Below, one piece after another: positions 11,840 to 28,800 of a DNA stretch of 39,751 nt. The translations under genes and the position numbers were made by a program. The notes beneath the pieces are model-generated. The model ran no database searches, was not told the DNA's origin, and saw only the letters and a program-made list of their open reading frames with translations. The DNA lies in assembly GCA_018971945.1 (NCBI GenBank), contig JAGWZH010000019.1, positions 1-39,751 on the forward strand, in the 5' to 3' direction. Source of the stretch: Alphaproteobacteria bacterium. Lineage in GTDB: Bacteria > Pseudomonadota > Alphaproteobacteria > Caulobacterales > Aquidulcibacteraceae. Positions within the stretch are counted from its first letter, which is position 1, and each line of letters opens with the position of its first letter.

Positions 11840-12730
11840 ATGAGCGTTGCTGATGCAGGGGCGGGCCGGCTGTCCGTGTCATTCGAGTGTTTCCCGCCCA
11901 AGTCCGCTGAAGCGGAAGTGAAATTGTGGGAAACAATCGGCAAACTCGCGCCGCTTAACCCAGACTTCGTGTCTGTGACCTACGGCGCTGGAGGGTCCAC
12001 GCGGGACCGAACCCACAGGACGGTGGCCCGCCTTATCCAGGAGACCCATCTCAAGCCGGCGGCGCATCTGACGACGGTGGCGGCCTCGCGCGGCGAGGTC
12101 GATGGGGTCTTGCGGCAATATTGGGATGCGGGCGTGCGGCATCTTGTGGCCTTGCGAGGGGATCCGCCCGGAGGGCTTGCGGAGGCCTTCACGCCTCACC
12201 CGGACGGCTACGCCAACGCCACGGAACTTGTCGCAGCGGCGAAGCGCTTGGCGGACTTCGAAATCAGCGTCGGGGTCTATCCCGAAAAACACCCCGAAAG
12301 CCCGTCGATCGAGCATGACCTTGACGTCATACGCGCCAAGATCGACGCGGGAGCGAGCCGCGGGATCAGCCAGTTCTTCTTCGAGGCGGAGACGTTTTTG
12401 CGCTTCCGCGACAGGCTCGCCAAGGCCGGGATCGCGCTGCCCATCGCGCCCGGGATCATGCCTGTGACGAACTTCAATGGTTTGAGGAAAATGGCCGCCG
12501 GCTGCGGCGCGCACGTGCCGCCTTGGCTTGAACGGCTTTTCGAAGGACTCGACGACGATCCGGAAACCCGCAAACTCGTGGCGGCGACGACGGCGGCGCA
12601 GCTTTGTCTAAAGCTCGCGGAGGAGGGTGTCGCTCTTTTTCATTTCTACACCCTCAATCGGGCCGAGCTGACGCTCGCGGCCTGCCGAATGCTGGGTGTT
12701 CTCCCAGAGGCTAAGGAGCAGGCGGCATGA
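11840..12730 (+). CDS. metF: 5,10-methylenetetrahydrofolate reductase
   Basis: MetF reduces 5,10-methylene-THF to 5-methyl-THF with NADH and FAD, giving the methyl donor used by MetH. The 296-residue product is of bacterial length. Visible motifs are [13 protein letters not shown] (start of the TIM barrel, with the catalytic Glu), [17 protein letters not shown] (the conserved folate/FAD region), [35 protein letters not shown] and the late [12 protein letters not shown]. The ATG at 11840 follows the sahR stop by 1 bp, and the 3' end overlaps metH part 1 by an ATGA, so the genes are translationally coupled. Regulation is probably through the SahR-type site at 10815. Confidence 0.97.
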
Positions 12731-13791
12731 GCGATCGAGAGCGGCGCCTGGCGGCGGTCGAAGCCGAGCGGCAGAAGAGAATCTTGATCCTGGACGGGGG
12801 CTGGGGATCAATGATCCAAACCCAAGGTCTTGAGGAGGAGGATTATCGCGGCGGCCGGTTTTGCGCCCATCACAAACCGCTGAAAGGCGACAATGATCTC
12901 CTGTGCCTGACGCGGCCGGACATCGTTGCAGGTATTCATGCAGCCTATTTCGCCGCCGGGGCTGACATCAGCTCCACAAACAGTTTCAACGCCACCGCCG
13001 TCAGTCAGGCGGACTATGACCTGCAATATGCGGTGAGGGATATCAATCTAGCGGCGGCGCGGATCGCCCGGGAAGCGGCGGATGCTGCAGAGGCCCAGGA
13101 CGGCAAGCCGCGGCTCGTGGCCGGGGCGATCGGGCCAACCAGCAAGACCTTGTCGCTGTCGCCCGATGTGAACGACCCGGCTTTCCGCGAGGTGGACTTC
13201 CCCCAGCTCGCGGCAAGCTATCAAGAGCAGGCGGAGGCTCTCATCGAGGGCGGGGCCGATTTGATCTTGATCGAGACGATTTTCGATACGCTGAACGCGA
13301 AGGCGGCGCTCTGGGGCGTTTGGGAAGCCTTCGATAAGACTGGCGTAGCGCTGCCGATCTGGCTTTCCGGTACGATCACTGACCGGTCCGGGAGGACTTT
13401 GTCGGGCCAGACGACGGAGGCGTTTTGGAACGCTGTGCGGCACGCTCAACCCTGGGCCGTCGGACTCAATTGCGCCCTTGGTCCTGCAGAGTTGAGGCCA
13501 TTTCTTGCGGAAATGGCGCGGGTCGCGGACTGTCCTGTCTCTGCGTATCCCAATGCGGGCCTGCCAAACGCCATGGGCGGCTATGATCAGGACCCGGCAG
13601 CCATGGCCGAGCACTACAGCGAATGGGCGCAGGCGGGGCTGGTCAATATTCTCGGAGGCTGCTGTGGGACCACTCCTGCGCACATCGCTGCGCTTGCGAG
13701 GGCGGTGGAAGGCGTCGCGCCCAGACGGCCGCAGCAACCGCCTCGGGCCATGCGGCTGTCCGGGCTTGAACCCTTCACGGTCGCGGGCTGA
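12727..13791 (+). CDS. metH1: Methionine synthase, homocysteine-binding module (split MetH, part 1)
   Basis: A 354-residue stand-alone homocysteine S-methyltransferase domain, equal to the first module of cobalamin-dependent MetH. It shows [36 protein letters not shown], and the zinc ligands Cys249 (GLNCALG) and Cys312/Cys313 ([10 protein letters not shown]). It lacks the folate, cobalamin and activation modules, which are encoded by the next gene 14 bp downstream; together they equal a full MetH. The start overlaps the metF stop, with AAGGAG 8 nt before the ATG. Split MetH is known in alphaproteobacteria, so this is not a broken gene. Confidence 0.95.
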
Positions 13792-13805
13792 GGAGCCGTT
13801 GGGCG

Positions 13806-16481
13806 ATGACGACAGCCAACCCGTTTTCGAATTTCGTGATCATTGGCGAACGGACGAACGTCACGGGCTCGGCGAAATTTCGCAAATTGATCGAAGCGGA
13901 CGACTATGCCGGCGGACTGGCTGTCGCTCGGCAGCAGGTTGAATCAGGCGCCAATGTCCTCGACGTGAACATGGATGCGGCCCTCATCGACGGGCCCTCC
14001 GCAATGACGCGGTTTTTGAACCTGATCGCAGGCGAGCCAGACATCGCCCGCATCCCTATCATGATCGATAGTTCGAAATGGGAGGTGATCGAAGCGGGCC
14101 TGCGTTGCGTCCAGGGCAAGCCGATCGTCAATTCGATCAGCTTGAAAGAGGGTGAAGAAGCGTTTCTGCGGCAGGCTAAACTCGTCAGGCGCTACGGAGC
14201 GGCGGTCGTGGTCATGGCCTTCGACGAAAAGGGCCAGGCCGACACGACAAAGCGCAAATACGAGATCTGCGCGCGCGCCTATCATCTCCTCACAGGCCAC
14301 GGCTTCCCGCCGGAAGACATTATCTTCGATCCGAATATCTTCGCGGTTGCGACCGGGATCGAGGAGCACAATGATTATGCCTTGGCTTTCTTTGAGGCGA
14401 CCCGGATGATCCGGGAGAGCCTCCCGCACGCGCACGTGTCGGGAGGTGTATCGAATGTGTCCTTCTCGTTCCGGGGCAACGAGCCTGTGAGAGAGGCCAT
14501 GCATGCGGTTTTCCTCTATCATGCGATCCGGGAGGGGATGGATTTCGGAATCGTGAACGCAGGCGCCCTTGCGGTCTATGACGATATCGAACCTGAATTG
14601 AGAGAGCGGGTGGAGGACGTTCTTTTGAACAGACGGTCGGATGCGACCGAACGCCTTTTAGAGATGGCCGAGCGCGTCAAAGGCGGGGCCAAGAGAAAAG
14701 ATCCAGAGCGTGATCTGGCCTGGCGCGGCCTCGGGGTTGAAAAGCGTTTGGAACACGCTTTGGTGCACGGGCTGAGCGAGTTCATCGTTGAAGACACCGA
14801 GGAAGCCCGACAGGCTGTGTCGCGCCCCCTGCATGTCATTGAAGGCCCCCTCATGGCCGGAATGAATGTTGTCGGCGACCTTTTCGGCGCAGGCAAAATG
14901 TTCCTTCCCCAGGTGGTGAAAAGCGCGCGCGTGATGAAACAGGCGGTGGCGCATCTCGTTCCGTTTTTGGAGGAAGAAAAACGCCTGACGGGCATGGCTG
15001 GACGATCGAACGGCACGGTGGTGATGGCGACAGTCAAAGGCGATGTCCACGATATCGGCAAAAACATCGTGGGCGTCGTCCTGCAATGCAACGGTTATGA
15101 CGTCATCGATCTCGGCGTAATGGTTCCGGCTGAGAAAATCCTCGATGCGGCAACGGAAGCGAAGGCTGACATGGTCGGCCTCTCCGGTCTCATCACGCCC
15201 TCTTTGGACGAAATGCGGTTTGTAGCGGAGGAAATGAAACGACGCGGCATGACCATGCCGCTTCTGATCGGCGGGGCCACCACAAGCCGCACGCATACGG
15301 CGGTGAAAATCGCGCCCAGTTACTCGGGGCCGGTTATCTATGTGACCGACGCCTCCCGGGCGGTTCCGGTGGTGCAGAAACTCATGAGCCCGGAGGATCG
15401 CGTCGGCTTCGCCGCAGAGACGCGGGCGGAGTACGAGCGGGTGCGGGAGGCTTATCTCGCCTCGCAGGATAAGAGGCCGCGCTTGGCGCTGGCTGCGGCG
15501 CGCGAGAAAGGCCTCAGACCCGATTTCTCCGCTTATGTCCCGCCGAAGCCAAGTTTTCTCGGCGTCCGTGATGTGTCGATGTCGCTGGCGGAGCTCGCGC
15601 CTTTCATCGACTGGACGCCGTTCTTCGCTTCTTGGGATTTGGCCGGCCGATACCCGGCCATCCTCCAAGATGATATTGTCGGCGAAGCGGCGCGGGGCCT
15701 TTTTAAAGACGCGCAGGCGATGCTTGCGCGCATGATCGACGAAAAATGGCTTGAAGCCAGGGGCGTTGTGGGTTTCTTCCCCGCCAATCGGGACGGCGAC
15801 GACCTGGTCGTGTGGTCGGACGAAACCCGAGCGCTTGAGCGCGCCAGGCTTCACACGCTGCGTCAGCAAATGGACAAAGGCGCCGACAAGCCGAATCTTG
15901 CCCTGGCCGATTTTGTCGCCCCCGCCGGCGTTGGAGACTATATCGGCGGCTTCGCCGTCACCGCGGGCGTCGGTGAGGTCGAAGCGTCGGAAAGGTTCAA
16001 AAAGGCCAACGACGACTACAGCGCGATCATGGTCAAGGCGCTCGCCGATCGGTTTGCTGAGGCTTTCGCCGAAGCCCTGCATTTTCGGGTTCGGAAGGAG
16101 TTGTGGGGGTTTTCGCCCGAGGAGGCTTTCGAACCCGCAGCGATGATCGCGGAGCAGTATCGGGGGATCAGGCCCGCGCCTGGCTATCCTGCTCAGCCAG
16201 ACCACACCGAGAAATGGACGTTGTTTGATCTTCTGGACGCCAGGACGCGAACGGGCATGACCCTCACTGAAAGCCTCGCCATGACGCCTCCGGCGAGCGT
16301 ATCAGGGCTTTATTTCAGTCACCCCCAAGCGGAATATTTCGGCGTCGGGCGGATCGATCGGGACCAGGTTCTCGACTACGCGGTCCGAAAAGGCTGGGAT
16401 ATAGCGACTGCGGAGCGTTGGTTGTCGCCCATCCTGGCTTATGATCCGGCCCGTGACGCCGCAAAGCCGGCGGGGAGCTAG
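13806..16481 (+). CDS. metH2: Methionine synthase, folate/cobalamin/activation modules (split MetH, part 2)
   Basis: An 891-residue protein carrying the remaining three MetH modules. Residues about 5-270 are the pterin-binding barrel ([46 protein letters not shown]). About 300-520 are the cap and Rossmann cobalamin domain with DVHDIG (His415, the lower cobalt ligand), [15 protein letters not shown] and [13 protein letters not shown]. About 570-890 are the SAM-binding reactivation domain ([30 protein letters not shown]). It transfers methyl from 5-methyl-THF through cobalamin to homocysteine held by the part 1 protein. It lies 14 bp downstream of part 1 in the same operon. Confidence 0.96.
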
Positions 16482-17536: not shown

Positions 17537-18160
17537 ATGACGACGACCTTGCCTGCCTATTTCTCTCGCTCTCCCTTCGATAGGGCCGCGCGCTGGGGCT
17601 TTGCAGCAGCAGCAGCGGCTTTTTTGGCCGCCTGCGTGAGCGCGCCTGCGCCAATCTACAGGCCAGGACCATCCCCGGCGCCCACCGCGCCGATGGGGTC
17701 GGACGCGCCGCCTTGGGCGTCCCCGCCTGGCGATCTTGGAGCTCCGGCGGTCCTACCCATCGCGCGACCGCTGCAATGCGTGCCCTATGCCCGGGATCGA
17801 TCGGGCGTTCGGATTTATGGAGACGCCAATACATGGTGGGACCAGGCGGAGGGGCGGTTCGCTCGGCTGAGCCGGCCCCGGACCGGGGCGGTCATGGCGA
17901 TGCTCGGCTACAGGACCACTAGACGAGGTCATGTGGCGTTCGTCACCGCCGTCCTCTCAGAGCGCATGATCCTTGTCGATCACGCCAATTGGCTGAATGG
18001 CGGGGAGATTTCCATCAATGTCCCTGTTCTTGACGTTTCACCTCAGAATGACTGGTCCCTTGTCAGAGTGTGGCACATCCCAGCAAGTCATTGGGGAGGC
18101 CGTGTCTATAATGTGCAAGGATTCATTTTGCCGGACACAGTCAACATGGCCAGTCGTTAA
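17537..18160 (+). CDS. Exported CHAP-domain lipoprotein, paralogue 1
   Basis: A 207-residue protein with a lipoprotein signal (LAAC, Cys33), a Pro/Ala linker, and a CHAP (NlpC/P60-like cysteine amidohydrolase/peptidase) domain. The catalytic Cys81 is in LQCVPYARDRSGV, followed by IYGDANTWW. His132 is in RGHVAFV, and a polar residue region follows in ILVDHANWLNGGEI. CHAP enzymes cleave peptidoglycan amide or peptide bonds; this would act at the envelope. The ATG at 17537 gives the signal peptide; a long n-region of about 19 residues precedes the hydrophobic stretch. The next gene is a clear paralogue. It lies just after the AT-rich island. Confidence 0.88.
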   Translation: MTTTLPAYFSRSPFDRAARWGFAAAAAAFLAACVSAPAPIYRPGPSPAPTAPMGSDAPPWASPPGDLGAPAVLPIARPLQCVPYARDRSGVRIYGDANTWWDQAEGRFARLSRPRTGAVMAMLGYRTTRRGHVAFVTAVLSERMILVDHANWLNGGEISINVPVLDVSPQNDWSLVRVWHIPASHWGGRVYNVQGFILPDTVNMASR

Positions 18161-18316
18161 TCTCGCTCTCGGGCTCGTTCTCAATCTTTCTGAAACATTT
18201 TTCATGGGACTTGCGATCGCCTATAGGGCGATCGGGATTGTCCTGGCGTTTGCAATCTTTTAAGCATGCCCCGACGTAGTGACCGGCGACAATGCCGCAG
18301 CGTTACTGGAGAGGGC

Positions 18317-18997
18317 ATGACAGGTAGGATGATCGCACTTGTGGCCGGGGCCGTCGCCGCGGGCTTCGCAACCGGGTGGGCTTCGCCCGCCGAGGCGCGG
18401 GCCCCGCTGTCGATGGAAGAGGTCAATGGCGACGCCGCGGCGTTTGGCGAGGCTTCCGCGCATGCGGAAGCCGCGCCCAGCGCCTTCGCGCCCGCAGGCG
18501 AGGAGGCCTTTGTCGCCAATGCGACGCTGGATCGGACCGCGCCGCCGCAGCAATGTGTTCCCTTCGCACGGCGTTTGTCCGGTGTGGAGATCTACGGCAA
18601 CGCGAATACGTGGTGGCGGCAAGCCGCTTCAAGCGCCTATGACCGGATCGAGCGGCCCGAAATTGGGGCTGTCATGGCCATGCTTGGGTACCGCACCTCA
18701 GCGCGCGGCCATGTGGCGGTCGTGGTGGAAGTGGTGTCGGAGCGCATGGTTCTTGTCGACCACGCCAATTGGCTCAATAGCGGTGAGGTGACCCGCGGCG
18801 TCCCGGTCCGCGACGTCTCGGCCGCAGGCGACTGGAGCGCGGTGCAGGTGTGGCACGTGCCCGGCGGACATTGGGGCGGACGCATCTATGGCGTGCAGGG
18901 CTTTATTCTGCCTCAGTCGGAGCCCGAAAAACCCTTCGGGGCCGTGGGATGGCGTCAGGCGACCCTGCCTGCGGTCGACGCCGCGGCGCAGGGCTGA
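18317..18997 (+). CDS. Exported CHAP-domain protein, paralogue 2
   Basis: A 226-residue protein with a Sec signal peptide (about 1-28, ending AEA) rather than a lipobox, then an Ala-rich linker and a CHAP domain. Cys80 lies in QQCVPFARRLSGV, then IYGNANTWW, and His132 lies in RGHVAVV, followed by VLVDHANWLNSGEV. The domain matches paralogue 1 nearly motif for motif, including GAVMAMLGYRT and HWGGRIYGVQGFILP, so the pair arose by duplication. One is membrane-anchored and the other free in the periplasm. The ATG at 18317 has a GGAG 5 nt upstream; the frame also opens at 18266 but without a signal. Substrate unknown; cell-wall hydrolysis is inferred from family. Confidence 0.88.
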   Translation: MTGRMIALVAGAVAAGFATGWASPAEARAPLSMEEVNGDAAAFGEASAHAEAAPSAFAPAGEEAFVANATLDRTAPPQQCVPFARRLSGVEIYGNANTWWRQAASSAYDRIERPEIGAVMAMLGYRTSARGHVAVVVEVVSERMVLVDHANWLNSGEVTRGVPVRDVSAAGDWSAVQVWHVPGGHWGGRIYGVQGFILPQSEPEKPFGAVGWRQATLPAVDAAAQG

Positions 18998-19217: not shown

Positions 19218-19255
19218 ATTGATGCTGAAAAGGCATTGAGAGCGGGAGGAGCGGG

Positions 19256-20176
19256 ATGGCGGAAGCTGCAGCGCATCGGCAGGCGGACCTGCCGCTTCAG
19301 AACGCCGGAGGATGGCGGGCGATGGCGGCCATCGCCAATTCGCCTTTGTTCCAGGGCGTGATCCTTTTCTGCATTGTCGGCAATGCGATCTCGCTCGGGG
19401 TGGACGCCCATTATGGCGACGCCCACCCGTTCCACTTCTATATCGAGGATCTGGACCGCTATTTTCTGGCGATCTTCACAGCCGAACTTGTGATCGAGTT
19501 CCTGGCGGCGGGGCCCCGGCGCTATTTCCGGTCGGGGTGGAATGTTTTCGACGTCATCGTCGTCGGCCTCTCTTATATATCAATGATGCCGTTCATCAGC
19601 GCCCTGCGGACGCTGCGGATCCTGAGAGTGCTGCGGCTCGTGTCGGCGGTGCCGCAAATGCGAAGGGTCGTAGAGGCGCTTTTCGGAGCGATGCCAGGCA
19701 TCCTGGCCACAGTCGCTGTGCTCGCGGTGGTCTTTTATATTGGCGCAGTGATGGCGACCACGCTCTTCCGCACCACCCACCCGGCGGAATTCGGAGATCT
19801 TTGGCTGTCGCTTTTGACCCTGTTTCAGCTCACCCAATTCGACGGTTGGGGCGACCTCGTCAAGAGCCTCAACGCCGACCATCCTTGGGCCTGGGCGTTT
19901 GTGATGGGGTTCACAGTGATCGCGGCGTTTGCGGTCTTGAACCTCTTCATCGGGGTGATCGTGGACGCCGTGCAAGATACGCGCACATCGCTGATCGCAG
20001 AGGATGTGAAAGAGATCGAGGAAGATATCGGCGAGATCGAAGAGGGAGTCGAAGACATCTCCCAGGCGCAGGACCGGGCTGCGGAAGAGAGCCGGGCGAT
20101 CCTTTCGGAGGTGCGGAGCCTGCGGGAAGAGATCGCCGCCTTGCGCGCCCAACTCGCCCAGCCGCGGAGCTTTTGA
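19256..20176 (+). CDS. Voltage-gated cation channel (single-domain BacNav/CavMr-like ion transporter)
   Basis: A 306-residue six-helix channel subunit that should assemble as a tetramer in the inner membrane. S1 is FQGVILFCIVGNAISLGV. S4 carries the voltage-sensing arginines every third residue (LRTLRILRVLRLV). S5 is ILATVAVLAVVFYIGAVMA, and S6 is VMGFTVIAAFAVLNLFIGVIV with the usual Asn. A charged coiled coil (about 250-303, IEEDIGEIEEGVEDIS onward) ends the protein, as in NaChBac relatives. The pore is LFQLTQFDGWGD: at the sodium-channel filter TLESWSM it has Q194-F-D-G-W-G-D200. An Asp at the key acidic position, a Gly after it and a further Asp resemble calcium-selective filters. The start has GGAGG about 7 nt upstream. 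Confidence 0.92.
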   Translation: MAEAAAHRQADLPLQNAGGWRAMAAIANSPLFQGVILFCIVGNAISLGVDAHYGDAHPFHFYIEDLDRYFLAIFTAELVIEFLAAGPRRYFRSGWNVFDVIVVGLSYISMMPFISALRTLRILRVLRLVSAVPQMRRVVEALFGAMPGILATVAVLAVVFYIGAVMATTLFRTTHPAEFGDLWLSLLTLFQLTQFDGWGDLVKSLNADHPWAWAFVMGFTVIAAFAVLNLFIGVIVDAVQDTRTSLIAEDVKEIEEDIGEIEEGVEDISQAQDRAAEESRAILSEVRSLREEIAALRAQLAQPRSF

Positions 20177-20467: not shown

Positions 20468-21028
20468 CTAAGGGGCCGGCGGCGTCAGCACCCCGTCGAT
20501 CACATGGATCACGCCGTTGCCCACGACGATATCGGCCTGGATGACCGTGGCCCCGCCTACCAGCACCGATTGGCCCGATGCGGTCAGAGGCAATGTGGGG
20601 CCTGCCACCGTGGCGGGGGTTTCGGTCTGGCCTGCAAGGTCGGCCGCCATGAGACGGCCGGGGACGACATGGTAGCCCAAGACACGGCGCAGGGGCGCCT
20701 TGTCGGGATTGGCCAGAAGCGCCTGAACGTCTGTTTCAACCGCAGCGAAAGCCTCGTTCACGGGAGCAAAAACGGTAAAGGGGCCCTCGCCGGAAAGCGT
20801 CGCGCCCAGATCCGCAGCGGTGATCGCGCTGACAAGCGTCGTAAAGCGGGGATCCGCAGAGGCGGCCCCCACAATATTGGAGGCCGCATCAGGGGTCGCC
20901 GTCGCCGTCTCCGCCGCCACAGAAGGCGCTGCATTCGTTTCCGGCGCCGGCTGGGGTTGGCCGCACGCGGCCAGAACCGCCAAGGCGGCCCCAAGGCCTG
21001 CGTACGCCAAAGGTCTCATGATCGTCAT
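20468..21028 (-). CDS. Fasciclin (FAS1)-domain lipoprotein
   Basis: A 186-residue protein with a lipoprotein signal (LAAC, Cys22), a Pro/Ala/Thr linker (about 23-50) and one FAS1 domain. The domain has DPRFTTLVSAITAADLGATL, the H1 box FTVFAPVNEAFAAV, the YH motif in LGYHVVPGRL and the H2-type end [17 protein letters not shown]1 domains mediate adhesion or protein-protein contacts at the envelope. It lies 41 bp downstream of a second FAS1 gene on the same strand and is probably cotranscribed with it. The ATG at 21028 is chosen; another ATG three codons in would also serve. Confidence 0.92.
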   Translation of the reverse strand: MTIMRPLAYAGLGAALAVLAACGQPQPAPETNAAPSVAAETATATPDAASNIVGAASADPRFTTLVSAITAADLGATLSGEGPFTVFAPVNEAFAAVETDVQALLANPDKAPLRRVLGYHVVPGRLMAADLAGQTETPATVAGPTLPLTASGQSVLVGGATVIQADIVVGNGVIHVIDGVLTPPAP

Positions 21029-21069
21029 CTGAAGATTATCCTTATCGGTTTCTGGTTACAGTCTTGGAC

Positions 21070-21636
21070 TTAGAACGGCGCAAGCACCGCATCGATGACA
21101 TGGATCACGCCGTTATCGGCAGCCACGTCCGCTGCGATCACCGTTGCTTCATTGACGGTCACGCCCTGGCGGCCGTCAATGGCGAGGATGGCGCCGTTAA
21201 GAGTGACAGGGGCGAGGGTGCGGCCGGCCAATTGGTCCGAAGCCACGCGGCCCGCCACAACGTGATAGGCGAGAAGAGCCCGCAACTCCTCGCGGCTCTC
21301 AGGACGAAGAAGCCGCTCAATGGTTCCATGCGGCAGAGCGGCGAAAGCCGCATCGGTCGGAGCGAAGACGGTCAAAGGACCTTCTCCGCGGAGCGCCTCG
21401 ACCAAACCCGCCGCCTGCGCCGCGGCCAAAAGCGTGTTAAACTGACCCGCGGACCGGGCCACGTCGACGATATCGCCGCGCGTTTGCGCAGGCCGCGGCG
21501 CTGAATGCGTCGCAGGCGCGGCGCGCCCGCCGCAGACAGGGCCTTCGGCGGCGGTAGGGCCTTCGGCGGCGGCAGGGCCCGCGCCGAGGCAAAGGGCGGC
21601 CAGTGCGCCGGCGAGCATGGTCAGGGATTTTCGCAT
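21070..21636 (-). CDS. Secreted fasciclin (FAS1)-domain protein
   Basis: A 188-residue protein with a cleavable Sec signal (about 1-24, ending AAA), a short linker with a duplicated AAEGP motif, and one FAS1 domain. The domain shows [43 protein letters not shown] and [14 protein letters not shown]. It is the first gene of a two-gene FAS1 set; the second product is a lipoprotein, so the pair may have one anchored and one soluble partner. The ATG at 21636 follows AAGGAGAGA. An AT-richer 200-bp stretch upstream, shared with the divergent TerB/DnaJ gene, probably holds the promoter. Confidence 0.92.
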
Positions 21637-21843
21637 GGTTCTCTCTCCTTCGTATGATTTTCTATCTCATACACGATACTTTACGAGAGGCATTGTGATT
21701 GGATCACTGCAGAAGGCGCTCTGCGGCATTCACACCGCTTCAGGCGGCAGGGGAGCGCTTGGGTCGGCGTCGTCAACAGCGTTCAACGACGATCAACTGC
21801 TGGGTGTTTGGACAAGCAGAGCGCATTCAGCCAACATGTCTTC

Positions 21844-22566
21844 ATGTCAGTATGGTCTGCGATCGTCGCTCTGGCGGCAAAGGCGTTTGAACCCGAGGCG
21901 ACCCCAGCCTCAGACGATCTAGCCTGCGCGCCCCAACCCGGGGATGTTGGTTTCACAGCCGCCGTCGTGGGATTGGCCGCGAAAATGGCCAAAGCGGACG
22001 GAGAAGTGAGCCCCACCGAGGTGCGGGCGGCGGCGCAGGTGTTCCGGCCGCCTCCCGGGGAAGAGGAGGCGTTCGGCTTGGCGTTCTCCATAGCCAAACA
22101 GTCGGTTCTCGGGTTTGAAAGTTACGCCAAGCAGATCGGACGGAAATACCGGGCGCGCCCCTGTCTTTTGGAGGATGTGCTTGACGGCTTGTTCCATATC
22201 GCGGCGGCGGACGGGGTGGTGGGGCCACGCGAGATCGCCTATCTGAAGACGGTGTCAGACCATTTCGGTTTCAGCGACAGCGAGTTTCGCCGTATTCGCG
22301 CGACCAATCTGGGACTCGAAGCGGACGACCCCTACGCGGTCTTGGGTCTCTTCCCGGGGGCGAGCCTGGACGAAGCGCGACGGGCCTGGCGCAGGCTCGC
22401 GGCGGAGAATCATCCTGACCGGATGGCTGAGCGGGGGGCGCCGCCGGAGTTTGTCGCTATCGCGCATGACAAAAGCGCCGCCATCAACGCCGCTTTCGCA
22501 CGCATCCGTGCTGAACTTGAGAGCGGCGGCCAACCCCGCGCCGTGTTGCAGAAGGCGGCGGATTGA
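21844..22566 (+). CDS. TerB domain plus DnaJ domain co-chaperone (DjlA-like, no membrane anchor)
   Basis: A 240-residue protein. Residues about 33-150 form a TerB/DjlA-type helical domain (VVGLAAKMAKADGEVSPTEV, LFHIAAADGVVGPREIAYL), whose paired acidic motifs KADGEV and AADGVV may bind metal. Residues about 170-235 are a J domain (DDPYAVLGLFPGASLDEARR, HPD in AENHPDRM), which would stimulate the ATPase of DnaK. Enterobacterial DjlA has an N-terminal membrane helix; here only a short non-transmembrane start is present, so it should be cytosolic. The ATG at 21844 (MSVWSAIV) fits the family start; an upstream GTG or TTG-type start at 21808 is less likely. Confidence 0.88.
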   Translation: MSVWSAIVALAAKAFEPEATPASDDLACAPQPGDVGFTAAVVGLAAKMAKADGEVSPTEVRAAAQVFRPPPGEEEAFGLAFSIAKQSVLGFESYAKQIGRKYRARPCLLEDVLDGLFHIAAADGVVGPREIAYLKTVSDHFGFSDSEFRRIRATNLGLEADDPYAVLGLFPGASLDEARRAWRRLAAENHPDRMAERGAPPEFVAIAHDKSAAINAAFARIRAELESGGQPRAVLQKAAD

Positions 22567-24783: not shown

Positions 24784-25201
24784 GCGTCAGTCGGCCGGGC
24801 GGCCGCTCGCACAAAAGCCGAAAGGCTGTGCGGGAGGAAAGTCCGGGCTCCACCGAGGCACGGCGGCGGGTAACGCCCGCCCAGGGCAACCTGAGGGATA
24901 GCGCCACAGAGAACCAGTCCGCCGATGGCCCATTTCAGGACCCGTCCTGGAACGGGCGCAGGCAAGGGTGAAACGGTGGGGTAAGAGCCCACCGCGCGAC
25001 CCGCAAGGGAAGCGGCACGGCAAGCCCCGCCGGGAGCAAGACCGAATAGGACCGCCGCCCCTTTGCTGGGGTCAGCCTGTCTCGCGGGCGAGAGCGGTCG
25101 GGTAGGTTGCGTGAACCGGGGTGTGAACCCCGGTCCAGAGGAATGGCCGCCCATCCCCAGCAATGGGGTGGACAGAACCCGGCTTACAGGCCGGCTGACG
25201 C
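24784..25201 (+). ncRNA. rnpB: RNase P RNA, bacterial class A
   Basis: The P1 helix is formed by GCGTCAGTCGGCC (24784-24796) with GGCCGGCTGACGC at the 3' end (25189-25201). Between them are the hallmark GAGGAAAGTCCGGGCTCC near 24832, the AGGGTGAAACGGTGGGGTAAGAGCCCACCGC core, and the 3' conserved segment ACAGAACCCGGCTTACAGGCC. This is the catalytic RNA that trims tRNA 5' leaders. The length of about 418 nt is normal. Open frames through this stretch are shadows. Confidence 0.97.
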
Positions 25202-25305
25202 CCTGCGCCTTCCCGCCGCACGGTCTGGGTCGGAGGCGCGCTCGCTGCTTTCTTATTCCCGCCTCCGCGGCTCCCTTGTCGTCTCCATTTTCTTTCTCCG
25301 CCTCT

Positions 25306-25860: not shown

Positions 25861-26843
25861 GCCATATCCCCGTGCTGCTGAACGAAATGTTGGCCGCTCT
25901 CGCGCCCGCGTGCGGGGAGACTTATTGCGATGCGACATTCGGAGGCGGCGCTTATACGGCGGCCATTCTTCAGAAGGCGGACTGCGCGCTTATCGGCGTC
26001 GACCGGGATCCCGAAGCCATCGCTCGCGGACAAACGCTGGCGGCGCTCTATGGCGACAGGCTGTCGCTCCGCCTGGGGGCTTTCGGGGATCTTGAGTCTC
26101 TTATCGCTGAGCCGCTCGATGGAGTGGTGATGGATATCGGGGTGTCTTCGTTTCAGCTGGATCAGGGCGCGCGGGGGTTTTCATTTCAAGCGGACGGACC
26201 CCTCGATATGCGGATGAGCCAACAAGGGCCGCGGGCCGCGGACGCGGTGAACGGGCTCACCGAGGCGGCCCTCGTCGATCTTTTGCGGGATTATGGCGAA
26301 GAAGACATGGCTCGGCCCATCGCGCGGGCGATTGTTCAAGAACGGGCGGCGTCGGCGATCGACTCAACGGCCCAGCTTGCGGCCATTATTGAGCGCGCTG
26401 TCGGCGGGCGCCGGGGCGCACGCACCCATCCAGCGACAAAGACCTTCCAAGCTTTGCGCATCCTGGTGAACGATGAGCTCGGGGAGCTGGCGCGCGCCTT
26501 AACGGCGGCGGAACGGCTGTTGAAACCGGGCGGTCGGCTTGTCGTGGTGAGTTTTCACTCTTTAGAAGACCGCATGGCCAAGCAGTTTCTCGCGGCGCGG
26601 GCTGGTCTTTTGGGGTCAGGCTCGCGCCATATTCCCGAGCCGCCGGCCGGGCCGCCGCCCAGTTTCGTTCTGCCCGCGCGGAAGCCTGTGACGCCGACCG
26701 ACGCCGAATGCGAGGCGAATCCGAGAGCGCGATCCGCCAGTTTGCGGCAAGCGGTGCGAACGCACGCACAGGCTTTTCCCCCCTTCGAGGCGCCGCCCCT
26801 GTCCTTGCGGGTTGTCGCCGAATGGCGGGAGATCGCCCGATGA
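25857..26843 (+). CDS. rsmH: 16S rRNA (cytosine-1402-N4)-methyltransferase RsmH
   Basis: RsmH (MraW) methylates N4 of C1402 in 16S rRNA using SAM. The 328-residue protein begins at a GTG overlapping the mraZ stop, giving SHIPVLLNEMLAAL as in the family. Motif I is DATFGGGAYTAAIL, followed by LIGVDRDPEAIA, and DGVVMDIGVSSFQLDQGARGFSF is the conserved signature. RTHPATKTFQALRILVNDEL and LVVVSFHSLEDRMAKQF complete the catalytic core. The stop overlaps ftsL by ATGA. An open frame extends back to 25536, but that part lies inside mraZ in another frame. Confidence 0.97.
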   Translation: MSHIPVLLNEMLAALAPACGETYCDATFGGGAYTAAILQKADCALIGVDRDPEAIARGQTLAALYGDRLSLRLGAFGDLESLIAEPLDGVVMDIGVSSFQLDQGARGFSFQADGPLDMRMSQQGPRAADAVNGLTEAALVDLLRDYGEEDMARPIARAIVQERAASAIDSTAQLAAIIERAVGGRRGARTHPATKTFQALRILVNDELGELARALTAAERLLKPGGRLVVVSFHSLEDRMAKQFLAARAGLLGSGSRHIPEPPAGPPPSFVLPARKPVTPTDAECEANPRARSASLRQAVRTHAQAFPPFEAPPLSLRVVAEWREIAR

Positions 26844-27151
26844 AAGCGCCGCGCTGGTTCGCCCTCGCCGCTCTGATCGTGATCGCGGCGTTGGCGGTCG
26901 GTCTTTATCGCGCCAAGACCGATGCGATGCGGGCGCGGCAGCGGATCGCAGGCTTGGAGGCGGCGGTGGCCGAAGCGCAACGCGACGTGGCTGCGCTCGA
27001 AGCCGAGGCGCAGATGCTTGAGTCCCCCGCCCGATTGGAGCAGGAGGCCGCTGGCCGGCTGGGCCTTGAGCCGGGCGCGCAGGCCCAGGCGCAGGACATC
27101 GGCGCGATCGAGGCGATCCCGCTGCGGGCGGACGCGGAGCCTGGACGGTGA
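26840..27151 (+). CDS. ftsL: Cell division protein FtsL
   Basis: A 103-residue bitopic division protein that joins FtsB and FtsQ to regulate FtsWI. There is a short basic N-terminus, a membrane helix (WFALAALIVIAALAVGLY), and a periplasmic coiled coil rich in Ala/Glu (IAGLEAAVAEAQRDVAALEA). A LARLGLEP-like end (AAGRLGLEPGAQ) then matches the FtsL constriction-control region. Sequence identity is low, as is usual for FtsL, so the call rests on topology and on its place between rsmH and ftsI with ATGA/GTGA overlaps on both sides. Confidence 0.88.
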   Translation: MKAPRWFALAALIVIAALAVGLYRAKTDAMRARQRIAGLEAAVAEAQRDVAALEAEAQMLESPARLEQEAAGRLGLEPGAQAQAQDIGAIEAIPLRADAEPGR

Positions 27152-28800
27152 AGCCGTTTCGCGATCCCTTGGCGGAGGCGGAACACCTGACAACGCCCAT
27201 GAGGGCCGCGCCCGCCCGGGGGCGCCTGCGCGTCGTGGCTTTGGTCGTGGCGCTGGTCTTTGTGGGGCTTGCGCTGCGGGCGACGCAATTGGCTTTCACA
27301 GGCGCGCCCGCGCTGGCGACGCGGCCTGAAGCGCCCTCGCAGCGATCGCCGGGGCGGGTGCTTGATCGAAACGGGGCGCTGCTTATCGGAGCGGGTCAGG
27401 GGCAGGTCCTGATCGCGCGGCGCGAACTCGTTTGGGATCCGCGCGCGACGGCGGAGGCGCTTGCGCAGTTGCTGCCAGGCCTTGACGCTTCCGCGCTCGC
27501 GGCCCGACTGATTGAGCGGGAGCGGGGGGTTGTTTATGTGCGGCGAGGATTGACGCAGGCGCAGGCGCAGGCCGCCCTGGATTTGGGCCTGGCCGGCTTG
27601 AGCGTTGAGCCCGAGCCGCGGCGGGTTTATCCCAACGGGCCGCTGGCGGGGCAGACCCTCGGCTATACCGATATCGATCTTGAGCCTCTCTCCGGCGTCG
27701 AGCGCGGCATGGCTTCGCTTATCGACGGACAAGAGGTGGTGCGGCTTTCGCTTGATCTTAGGGTGCAGCACGCCGTCGAGGCTGAACTCGCCGCCGGCGC
27801 GGAGGCCGCCGGCGCCCGCAGCGGCGCCATGGCGGTGCTTGACGGGCGAACAGGAGAGATCCTCGCGCTCGCGTCTTGGCCCTTTCTCGACCCCAATCGT
27901 CAAGGCGGGGCGAGCGAAGAAGCGCGGCGCCATCACGCTGTTGGAGCGCGCTACGAGCTCGGTTCTTCCCTCAAACCCTTGACCTTCGCCATGGCCTTGG
28001 ACGCAGGGGTCTTTCTGGCTTCGGAGCTTTTCGACACCGCCGATGGGGTGCAGGTGGAAGGTCGGGTGATCCAAGACTCCGAACCGGCGCTGGCGCCAAT
28101 CGGGCTCGAGGAGGCCCTGGCGCGGTCTTCAAACGTGGCTGCGGCGATGGCGGCTTTGCGTGTGGGCGGGCCATTGCAAACACAATATCTTGAAAGGCTG
28201 GGCTTTGACGCCCGCTTCGATATCGGCCTGCCGGAAGCGGCGGCGCACCGGCTCGCGCCGCCGCGCGGCCCCACCGACGTCGCCGCGCGAGGCTATGGCT
28301 ATGGGATGCTGCTCTCGCCTCTGTCGCTTGCGAGCGCCTACACCGTCTTTGTCAATGACGGCCGGAGGGTGAGCCTCACTTTGCGGCCGCGGCTGGAGGC
28401 GGAAGCGGAGTATTTTCCCGTCTTCAGTCCAGAGTCTGCGCGGATCGTTCGCGAAGCGATGGCGCGGGCCCTGCCTGAAGGCACTGGTTGGCGGGCCGCT
28501 TCAGCCAGTTTCGGTTTGGCGGGCAAGACCGGTACGGCCCGCCGTTTGACGGCGCAGGGCGCTTACGAGGAAAATCGGGTTGTCGCCAGCTTTGCAGCGG
28601 TGTTCCCGGCCGCGGCGCCCCGTTTCGTCCTGGCCGTGGTTGTTGACGAGCCGGTCCGTGGGGTGGAAGAGGGCGCCGGTCCCACGGGCGGGGGCGTCGC
28701 GGCCCCAATCGCGGGCCGCGCCGCGTTGCGCATCGCGCCGTTCCTGGGGCTATTCACGGCGCAGGCGGCGCCGCAAGCGACAGGAGAAGCCTCCCCATGA
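27148..28800 (+). CDS. ftsI: Septal peptidoglycan transpeptidase FtsI (PBP3)
   Basis: A 550-residue class B penicillin-binding protein that crosslinks septal peptidoglycan with FtsW. It has a short cytoplasmic tail, one membrane helix (VVALVVALVFVGLALRATQL) and a pedestal domain starting with PGRVLDRNGALL. The transpeptidase domain carries SxxK (Ser273-Ser-Leu-Lys276), SxN (Ser327-Ser-Asn329) and KTG (460-462). The usual STxK is SSLK here, a conservative variant. It begins at a GTG overlapping the ftsL stop and ends overlapping murE by ATGA. Confidence 0.96.
   Translation: MKPFRDPLAEAEHLTTPMRAAPARGRLRVVALVVALVFVGLALRATQLAFTGAPALATRPEAPSQRSPGRVLDRNGALLIGAGQGQVLIARRELVWDPRATAEALAQLLPGLDASALAARLIERERGVVYVRRGLTQAQAQAALDLGLAGLSVEPEPRRVYPNGPLAGQTLGYTDIDLEPLSGVERGMASLIDGQEVVRLSLDLRVQHAVEAELAAGAEAAGARSGAMAVLDGRTGEILALASWPFLDPNRQGGASEEARRHHAVGARYELGSSLKPLTFAMALDAGVFLASELFDTADGVQVEGRVIQDSEPALAPIGLEEALARSSNVAAAMAALRVGGPLQTQYLERLGFDARFDIGLPEAAAHRLAPPRGPTDVAARGYGYGMLLSPLSLASAYTVFVNDGRRVSLTLRPRLEAEAEYFPVFSPESARIVREAMARALPEGTGWRAASASFGLAGKTGTARRLTAQGAYEENRVVASFAAVFPAAAPRFVLAVVVDEPVRGVEEGAGPTGGGVAAPIAGRAALRIAPFLGLFTAQAAPQATGEASP

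Follow-up and report, generated by a model that had tools for sequence, protein, structure and literature searches.

How pores discriminate between Na+ and Ca2+ is a long-standing question, and a gene in an alphaproteobacterial genome of the family Aquidulcibacteraceae raises it in a pointed form: which ions would be admitted by a channel with the build of a bacterial sodium channel (BacNav) and a selectivity filter that reads QFDGWGD? The gene lies in a 39,751-nucleotide stretch of contig JAGWZH010000019.1 (assembly GCA_018971945.1), and this whole stretch is called the window here.

The channel gene

The channel ORF (19256..20176, +) is intact, encodes 306 aa and matches the Pfam Ion_trans domain (PF00520, 4.1e-46). 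Just upstream, GGGAGGAG (19244..19251, +) ends 4 bases before the ATG and, judged by its letters, is likely the ribosome-binding site of the ORF. The protein comprises one Ion_trans domain of six helices plus a P-loop, the arrangement by which members of the BacNav superfamily are recognized. Alignment places the arginines of the S4 voltage sensor (Arg118, Arg121, Arg124 and Arg127; 19607..19636, +) in the same four columns as those of NavAb, NavMs and NaChBac, and these columns are Arg in 30 of 30 rows of the filter clade described below, its 31st row being a fragment. The S4 partners N43, E77 and D99 are likewise kept in the 30 clade rows that reach those columns (30/30), and the polar and acidic residues of S1-S3 are those of the three reference channels. 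In S6, Asn229 (19940..19942, +) aligns with the Asn conserved in this helix across the superfamily, a column that is Asn in 31/31 clade rows and in NavAb, NavMs and NaChBac. An acidic neck and a C-terminal helix follow (19988..20155, +), as read from the sequence and from an AlphaFold2 model with a helix at 210-300; the helix is likely a coiled coil, as in BacNavs. The model, computed on a three-row alignment (the window channel, L034 and L035), is poor overall (pLDDT 55, pTM 0.38), so that filter geometry is unreadable from it. In the PDB, the protein matched by sequence both human Nav and Cav chains and bacterial channels, the latter including 5hvx, 6vwx and 3rw0, which we take to be NavMs, NaChBac and NavAb, respectively.

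Ion_trans was found at three places in the window genome (3.4 Mb, 233 contigs). The two other genes have the K+-type filters TVGYGD and TTGFGD, and the window channel is thus the sole Nav/Cav-type channel found in the genome. The TTGFGD channel (L003, C98:8758-9321) has a C-terminal CxxC...CxxC tail resembling a zinc ribbon. The genome also encodes a protein of the Na+/Ca2+-exchanger family, as do 11/14 control genomes. A recent plasmid origin of the channel was considered and set aside: 39 plasmid records matched it, all at less than 60% identity, and the 20 matches listed were at most 38.7% identical.

The selectivity filter and its conservation

A prior sequence-only reading had placed a filter Q-F-D-G-W-G-D, belonging to a voltage-gated channel, at 19835..19855 (+), and had named alignment with BacNavs as a check. 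The codons translate exactly to these letters as residues 194-200 of the Ion_trans protein. In BLASTP against NavAb (residues 23-297; 88/276 columns identical, E 8e-48), and in a MAFFT alignment with NavAb, NavMs and NaChBac, QFDGWGD falls on the NavAb filter TLESWSM. Both aligners make the stretch after the Trp one residue shorter than in NavAb (WG-DLV versus WSMGIV). Asp200 is position 7 by counting, in the manner of the CavMr paper, whereas the aligners pair it with the NavAb Gly that follows Met. The departures from TLESWSM that had been pointed out are thus confirmed, and they are conserved across a clade of 31 channels.

The clade emerged from a family-level search of 60 genomes, 45 of which had a match with E at or below 1e-20. 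Wider searches gave matches in 178 of 299 genomes of the order, 109 of 385 of the class and 127 of 398 of the phylum, these sets overlapping. Filters were read from part of the matches, giving 258 distinct channels after 9 repeats were removed; this set excludes 11 of the class matches listed, many of those from the order and the phylum, and the family matches in genomes G014 and G028. Three of the 258, from class-level genomes, have filters without the Trp and were left unscored (L142, IYDDYGA; L154, VYDDYGT; L121, TFDNLGD). Filters of the type [QL][FY]D[GDN]WG were found in 31 of the 60 family genomes, each contributing one distinct channel; 27 are Q[FY]D[GN]WG[DE] and four LFD[DN]WG, and because the type recurs in this way, QFDGWGD is not a chance reading. 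Asp3, Trp5 and Gly6 are present in 31/31. Position 1 is Gln in 27 and Leu in 4, position 2 Phe in 30 and Tyr in 1, and position 4 Gly in 26, Asp in 3 and Asn in 2. Position 7 is Asp in 19, Glu in 9, Asn in 2 and Ala in 1, i.e., acidic in 28/31. With Asp or Asn at position 4 in 5/31 and no acid at position 7 in 3/31, neither position is strictly kept.

Among the 224 scored channels outside the clade, Gln1 was absent, Gly6 occurred once (L017, TLDGWGD), and Gly4 occurred in 79. The sequence-only reading had called the first two filter residues unusual. This is so for Gln1; Phe2, in contrast, was found in 19/224 channels outside the clade, 16 of them with TFEDWTD-type filters, and Phe at this position is reported for some BacNavs and AnclNavs (PMC10349818). 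In the class-wide sample, 24 of 110 distinct channels, the window's included, had EGW or DGW filters.

Relatives in two Hyphomonadaceae MAGs (JAEUMQ010000016.1 and JAIELK010000009.1) have channels 59% and 55% identical to the window's, and their S1-S6 segments equal those of family genomes G016 and G010. On this basis the family searched is taken to be Hyphomonadaceae, assigned by NCBI to Hyphomonadales, Alphaproteobacteria. Among 12 listed pairs, the two most alike in protein gave low dN/dS, 0.039 (L047/L013) and 0.052 (L037/L039). Most other listed values lay at 0.19-0.71. The median was 0.18 over 380 pairs with dS <1.5, and beyond the closest pairs such values are unreliable because synonymous sites are saturated, an odd 0.705 at 52% protein identity being one example.

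Tandem BacNav-type gene pairs were seen at L208, L214 and L215 (genomes G760, G704 and G839) and at G739:C22. The first three have unlike filters, TTEGWP.. and T[MS]EGWPD, and unlike pairs of this kind could form heteromers, comparable to the four unlike domains in one animal-channel chain. TLESWSM channels also occur as adjacent tandem pairs (L052, L053 and L055; family code f69).

Tree placement

Trees were built with the filter columns removed. In a quick tree of 159 rows, the window channel fell in a 17-row clade of QF/LF-filter channels (SH-aLRT 97), itself nested in a 29-row clade (99) made up entirely of rows from the window's order. A careful tree was built on 63 rows, chosen by hand among the 159 so as to cover the filter types, the 159 having been thinned from 269; here, 24 rows of the order-level clade stood together at 99/94.

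CavMr itself lies outside these trees. Channels with EDW filters (TLEDWTD and TFEDWTD) were used as a proxy for its AnclNav group, since the filter of NavPp is TLEDWTD and AnclNav lies nearest a Bacillus group (PMC7041947). In the careful tree, nine EDW rows and NaChBac split from all others, the window clade included, at 100/98, and an AU test rejected the window clade and the EDW channels as one clade (p 0.0056); the same kind of test on a 108-row quick tree failed to reject that grouping (p 0.151). No EGW or DGW row lay inside the EDW clade of the 159-row tree. Identity to the window channel averaged 31.5% over 23 EDW rows, 40.1% over 117 ESW rows, 38.2% over 48 EGW rows and 41.7% over 32 DGW rows, with the references and some repeats counted among the ESW rows. 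On the careful tree, the EDW split and the mean identities, membership in the CavMr/NavPp group, as represented by this proxy, was rejected, the quick-tree test being the exception. By tree, the window channel belongs to the NavAb-like sodium-channel group, not with the NavPp-like EDW channels. Of the three references, NavMs is the closest: aligned S1-S6 identity is 95/218 for NavMs and 76/218 for NavAb, both on the same side of the tree as the window channel. A union of the window clade with the TLEGWPD clade was not firmly rejected (AU p 0.065, 63-row tree).

On the 63-row tree, and for that choice of rows, ten changes between Gly4 and not-Gly were counted, one for Gly6 and two between Thr1 and not-Thr. 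Gly4 therefore came or went repeatedly, and a single gain suffices for Gly6.

The genomic neighbourhood

Upstream of the channel, the window has a tandem pair of CHAP-domain proteins (17537-18997) identified by Pfam, the first at 17537..18160 (+) and the second at 18266..18997 (+). Downstream are a tandem fasciclin pair (20468-21636) and a protein with TerB and DnaJ domains, again by Pfam (21808..22566, +; from 21844 if an ATG is the start), which served as a synteny marker. Neighbours were surveyed at 98 loci with flanks of at most 1.5 kb; four loci were shorter than 2.6 kb, so that some absences are contig ends. TerB/DnaJ lay 3' of the channel on the same strand at 20/29 QF/LF, 2/3 TGDGW and 4/4 TMDGW loci, and in this survey it was found beside the channel at 0/36 ESW, 0/15 EGW, 0/10 other DGW and 0/1 TLDGWG loci. 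CHAP matches were present at 24/29 QF/LF, 2/3 TGDGW and 1/36 ESW loci, and fasciclin matches at 13/29 QF/LF and 1/3 TGDGW loci. Sixteen larger regions around relatives, two of them shortened, contained TerB/DnaJ in 12, CHAP in 11 and fasciclin in 9; the matches to the two CHAP proteins, which are similar, overlap in part. The TerB/DnaJ-linked relatives include channels with the filters TMDGWRF and TGDGWSE. Given this common neighbour, the filter seemingly changed at one genomic place, and the QF, TGDGW and TMDGW channels appear to be orthologues in which the filter was altered in situ. The fixed neighbours may be passengers, and no functional link to the channel is drawn from them.

Elsewhere in the window, MTHFR, homocysteine S-methyltransferase and the pterin/B12/activation part of methionine synthase are encoded by separate adjacent genes, a split MetH (11840-16481). 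The RNase P RNA lies at 24787-25202 (Rfam RF00010, 270.5 bits), followed by MraW and a penicillin-binding transpeptidase at 25887-28800; what looks like a cell-wall and division cluster starts about 5.7 kb past the channel.

Which ions might pass

The window channel has in common with the NavAb/NavMs-type BacNavs (TLESWSM) the fold as judged by sequence, the voltage sensor, the S6 Asn and the placement of the P-loop. Its filter, in contrast, differs from TLESWSM at positions 1, 2, 3, 4, 6 and 7, besides having one residue fewer after the Trp. Read letter by letter, it is the Asp3, Gly6 pair of NsvBa joined to the Gly4, Asp7 pair of CavMr.

NsvBa of Bacillus alcalophilus (TLDSWGSG) is described as not discriminating among Na+, K+ and Ca2+ (PMC4225499). 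According to the same source, NsvBa differs from NaChBac in two filter letters, Asp3 and Gly6, these two letters put into NaChBac transfer the non-selectivity, D186E alone gives NsvBa Na+ selectivity, and G189A reduces K+ and Rb+ permeation. The sequence-only reading, which had suggested that the channel could be calcium- or mixed-selective, was incomplete here, as both Gly6 and NsvBa had been missed. That the window channel is, like NsvBa, a non-selective cation channel passing Na+, K+ and Ca2+ is a possibility to be taken seriously, if tentatively, and the distribution of Gly6 (31/31 clade channels against L017 alone among the 224 others) is in its favour. Nevertheless, NsvBa has Ser4, no acid at position 7 and a Ser-Gly end on a Bacillus-type scaffold 61% identical to NaChBac (PMC4225499), whereas Gly4, the acidic position 7 and the shorter stretch after the Trp in the window filter should favour divalents. 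The frame with one residue fewer also differs from that of CavAb.

Gly4 was the residue on which the sequence-only reading had leaned, and in CavMr it has indeed been reported to determine Ca2+ selectivity. The selectivity of that channel (TLEGWVD) is weakened by G4S and G4D and unaffected by D7M, and in NavPp the change D4G brings divalent selectivity along with increased K+ and Cs+ permeation (PMC7041947). The window filter has Gly4, Trp5 and Asp7 in common with CavMr. It has Asp3, Gly4, Trp5 and Asp7 in common with CatSper3 (TVDGWTD) and CatSper4 (TQDGWVD), filters quoted in PMC7041947; the likeness is one of filter letters, as these proteins are subunits of a sperm channel with four different subunits. 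Further, a 2023 proposal holds that Gly after an acidic ring of Glu or Asp yields Ca2+-selective one-domain channels (PMC10120453). A truly Ca2+-selective channel resembling CavMr, with Gly4 widening the entrance, Asp3 binding Ca2+, and Na+ and K+ excluded, is nonetheless slightly less likely than the NsvBa-like reading. The window filter has Asp3 rather than Glu and Gly6 rather than Val, the very pair reported to abolish selectivity in NsvBa (PMC4225499), plus Gln1 and Phe2. CavMr, an AnclNav channel, belongs to a different tree group by the EDW proxy and carries a loop with a disulfide ahead of S6 (PMC10120453), whereas the window channel is without such an extension. Moreover, NavAb carrying the CavMr filter is reported to give no detectable current (PMC7041947). 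Given that silence and the NavAb-like tree place of the window channel, selectivity is not transferable from CavMr by filter letters alone, and Gly4 may behave differently in a pore of the NavAb type. A comparison with the extra Asp residues of engineered CavAb (TLDDWSD) had also been drawn. Asp3 and Asp7 are present as in CavAb, but position 4 is Asp there (PMC10120453) and Gly in the window channel, and with CavMr still selective as D7M, the counting of Asp residues is a weak guide.

A Na+ channel subject to block by Ca2+ from outside, as in NavPp (TLEDWTD), is unlikely. With two acid rings, Ca2+ might be bound more tightly, and NavPp illustrates that extra acids need not bring Ca2+ permeation (PMC7041947), but the replacement of its Asp4 by Gly, the residue found in the window channel, made it divalent-selective (PMC7041947), and L176F, the Phe2 change in NavAb, is reported to give no Ca2+ block (PMC10349818). 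It is more unlikely still that the window channel is an ordinary sodium channel whose filter letters changed by neutral drift. The scaffold is like those of Na+-selective BacNavs, with NavMs the nearest reference; however, Asp replaces Glu at position 3, and the retention of D3, W5 and G6 in all clade channels although identity to the window channel drops to 55% reads as selection, not drift. Finally, a potassium-type filter, suggested by the resemblance of GWGD to the K+ signature GYGD, by a MAFFT alignment of GWGD with the TVGYGD channel of the same genome and by a GxG motif noted in NsvBa by its authors, at other positions, is very improbable and was set aside, as the TVG half of a TVGYG-type filter is missing, an Asp ring precedes GWGD, and NsvBa filters altered toward K+ selectivity are reported to have failed to express or conduct (PMC4225499).

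Taking the NsvBa-like and CavMr-like possibilities together, we think that the window channel is probably voltage-gated and Ca2+-preferring to mixed, and not strictly Na+-selective. Both the NsvBa pair and the CavMr pair argue against strict Na+ selectivity and for Ca2+ entry, and they disagree on the exclusion of monovalent ions; by analogy with them, calcium or mixed selectivity is plausible from the filter. We infer the tetramer, the voltage gating, the selectivity and the physiological role as follows. The ORF product is predicted to be a homotetramer of the BacNav superfamily, on its NavAb-like side. Depolarisation would move the four S4 arginines and open the S6 gate, as the conserved residues suggest. 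In the pore, the Glu ring of Na+-selective BacNavs would be replaced by an Asp ring at position 3; Trp5 would be kept, positions 4 and 6 would be Gly, and position 7 would supply another acidic ring at the outer mouth. The shorter acid at position 3 and the small, flexible glycines near it should weaken the tight Na+ site and admit Ca2+. The most likely function would be Ca2+ entry on a voltage trigger, with or without Na+.

Implications for the family

In the open-access literature, searched by titles and abstracts, none of the matches listed dealt with a QFDGWGD filter or with Hyphomonadaceae channels. Within the literature covered, no native NavAb-like channel was met whose Cav-like filter has this composition. 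We raise, with reserve, the possibility of a second bacterial origin of Ca2+ selectivity, arising inside the NavAb-like lineage by a route of its own (Asp3, Trp-flanking glycines, one residue fewer and a second acid ring), together with living members of the order whose orthologous or nearly related channels retain the filter variants TLESWSM, TLEGWAx, TMDGWRx, TGDGWSE, TLDGWGD, LFDNWGD and QFDGWGD, several of these variants sharing a single genomic address. A series of this kind, provided by nature on a common scaffold, would allow selectivity to be tracked stepwise in recordings, and the range of calcium-like filters among the relatives could make the family usable for testing how Na+ and Ca2+ channels interconvert.
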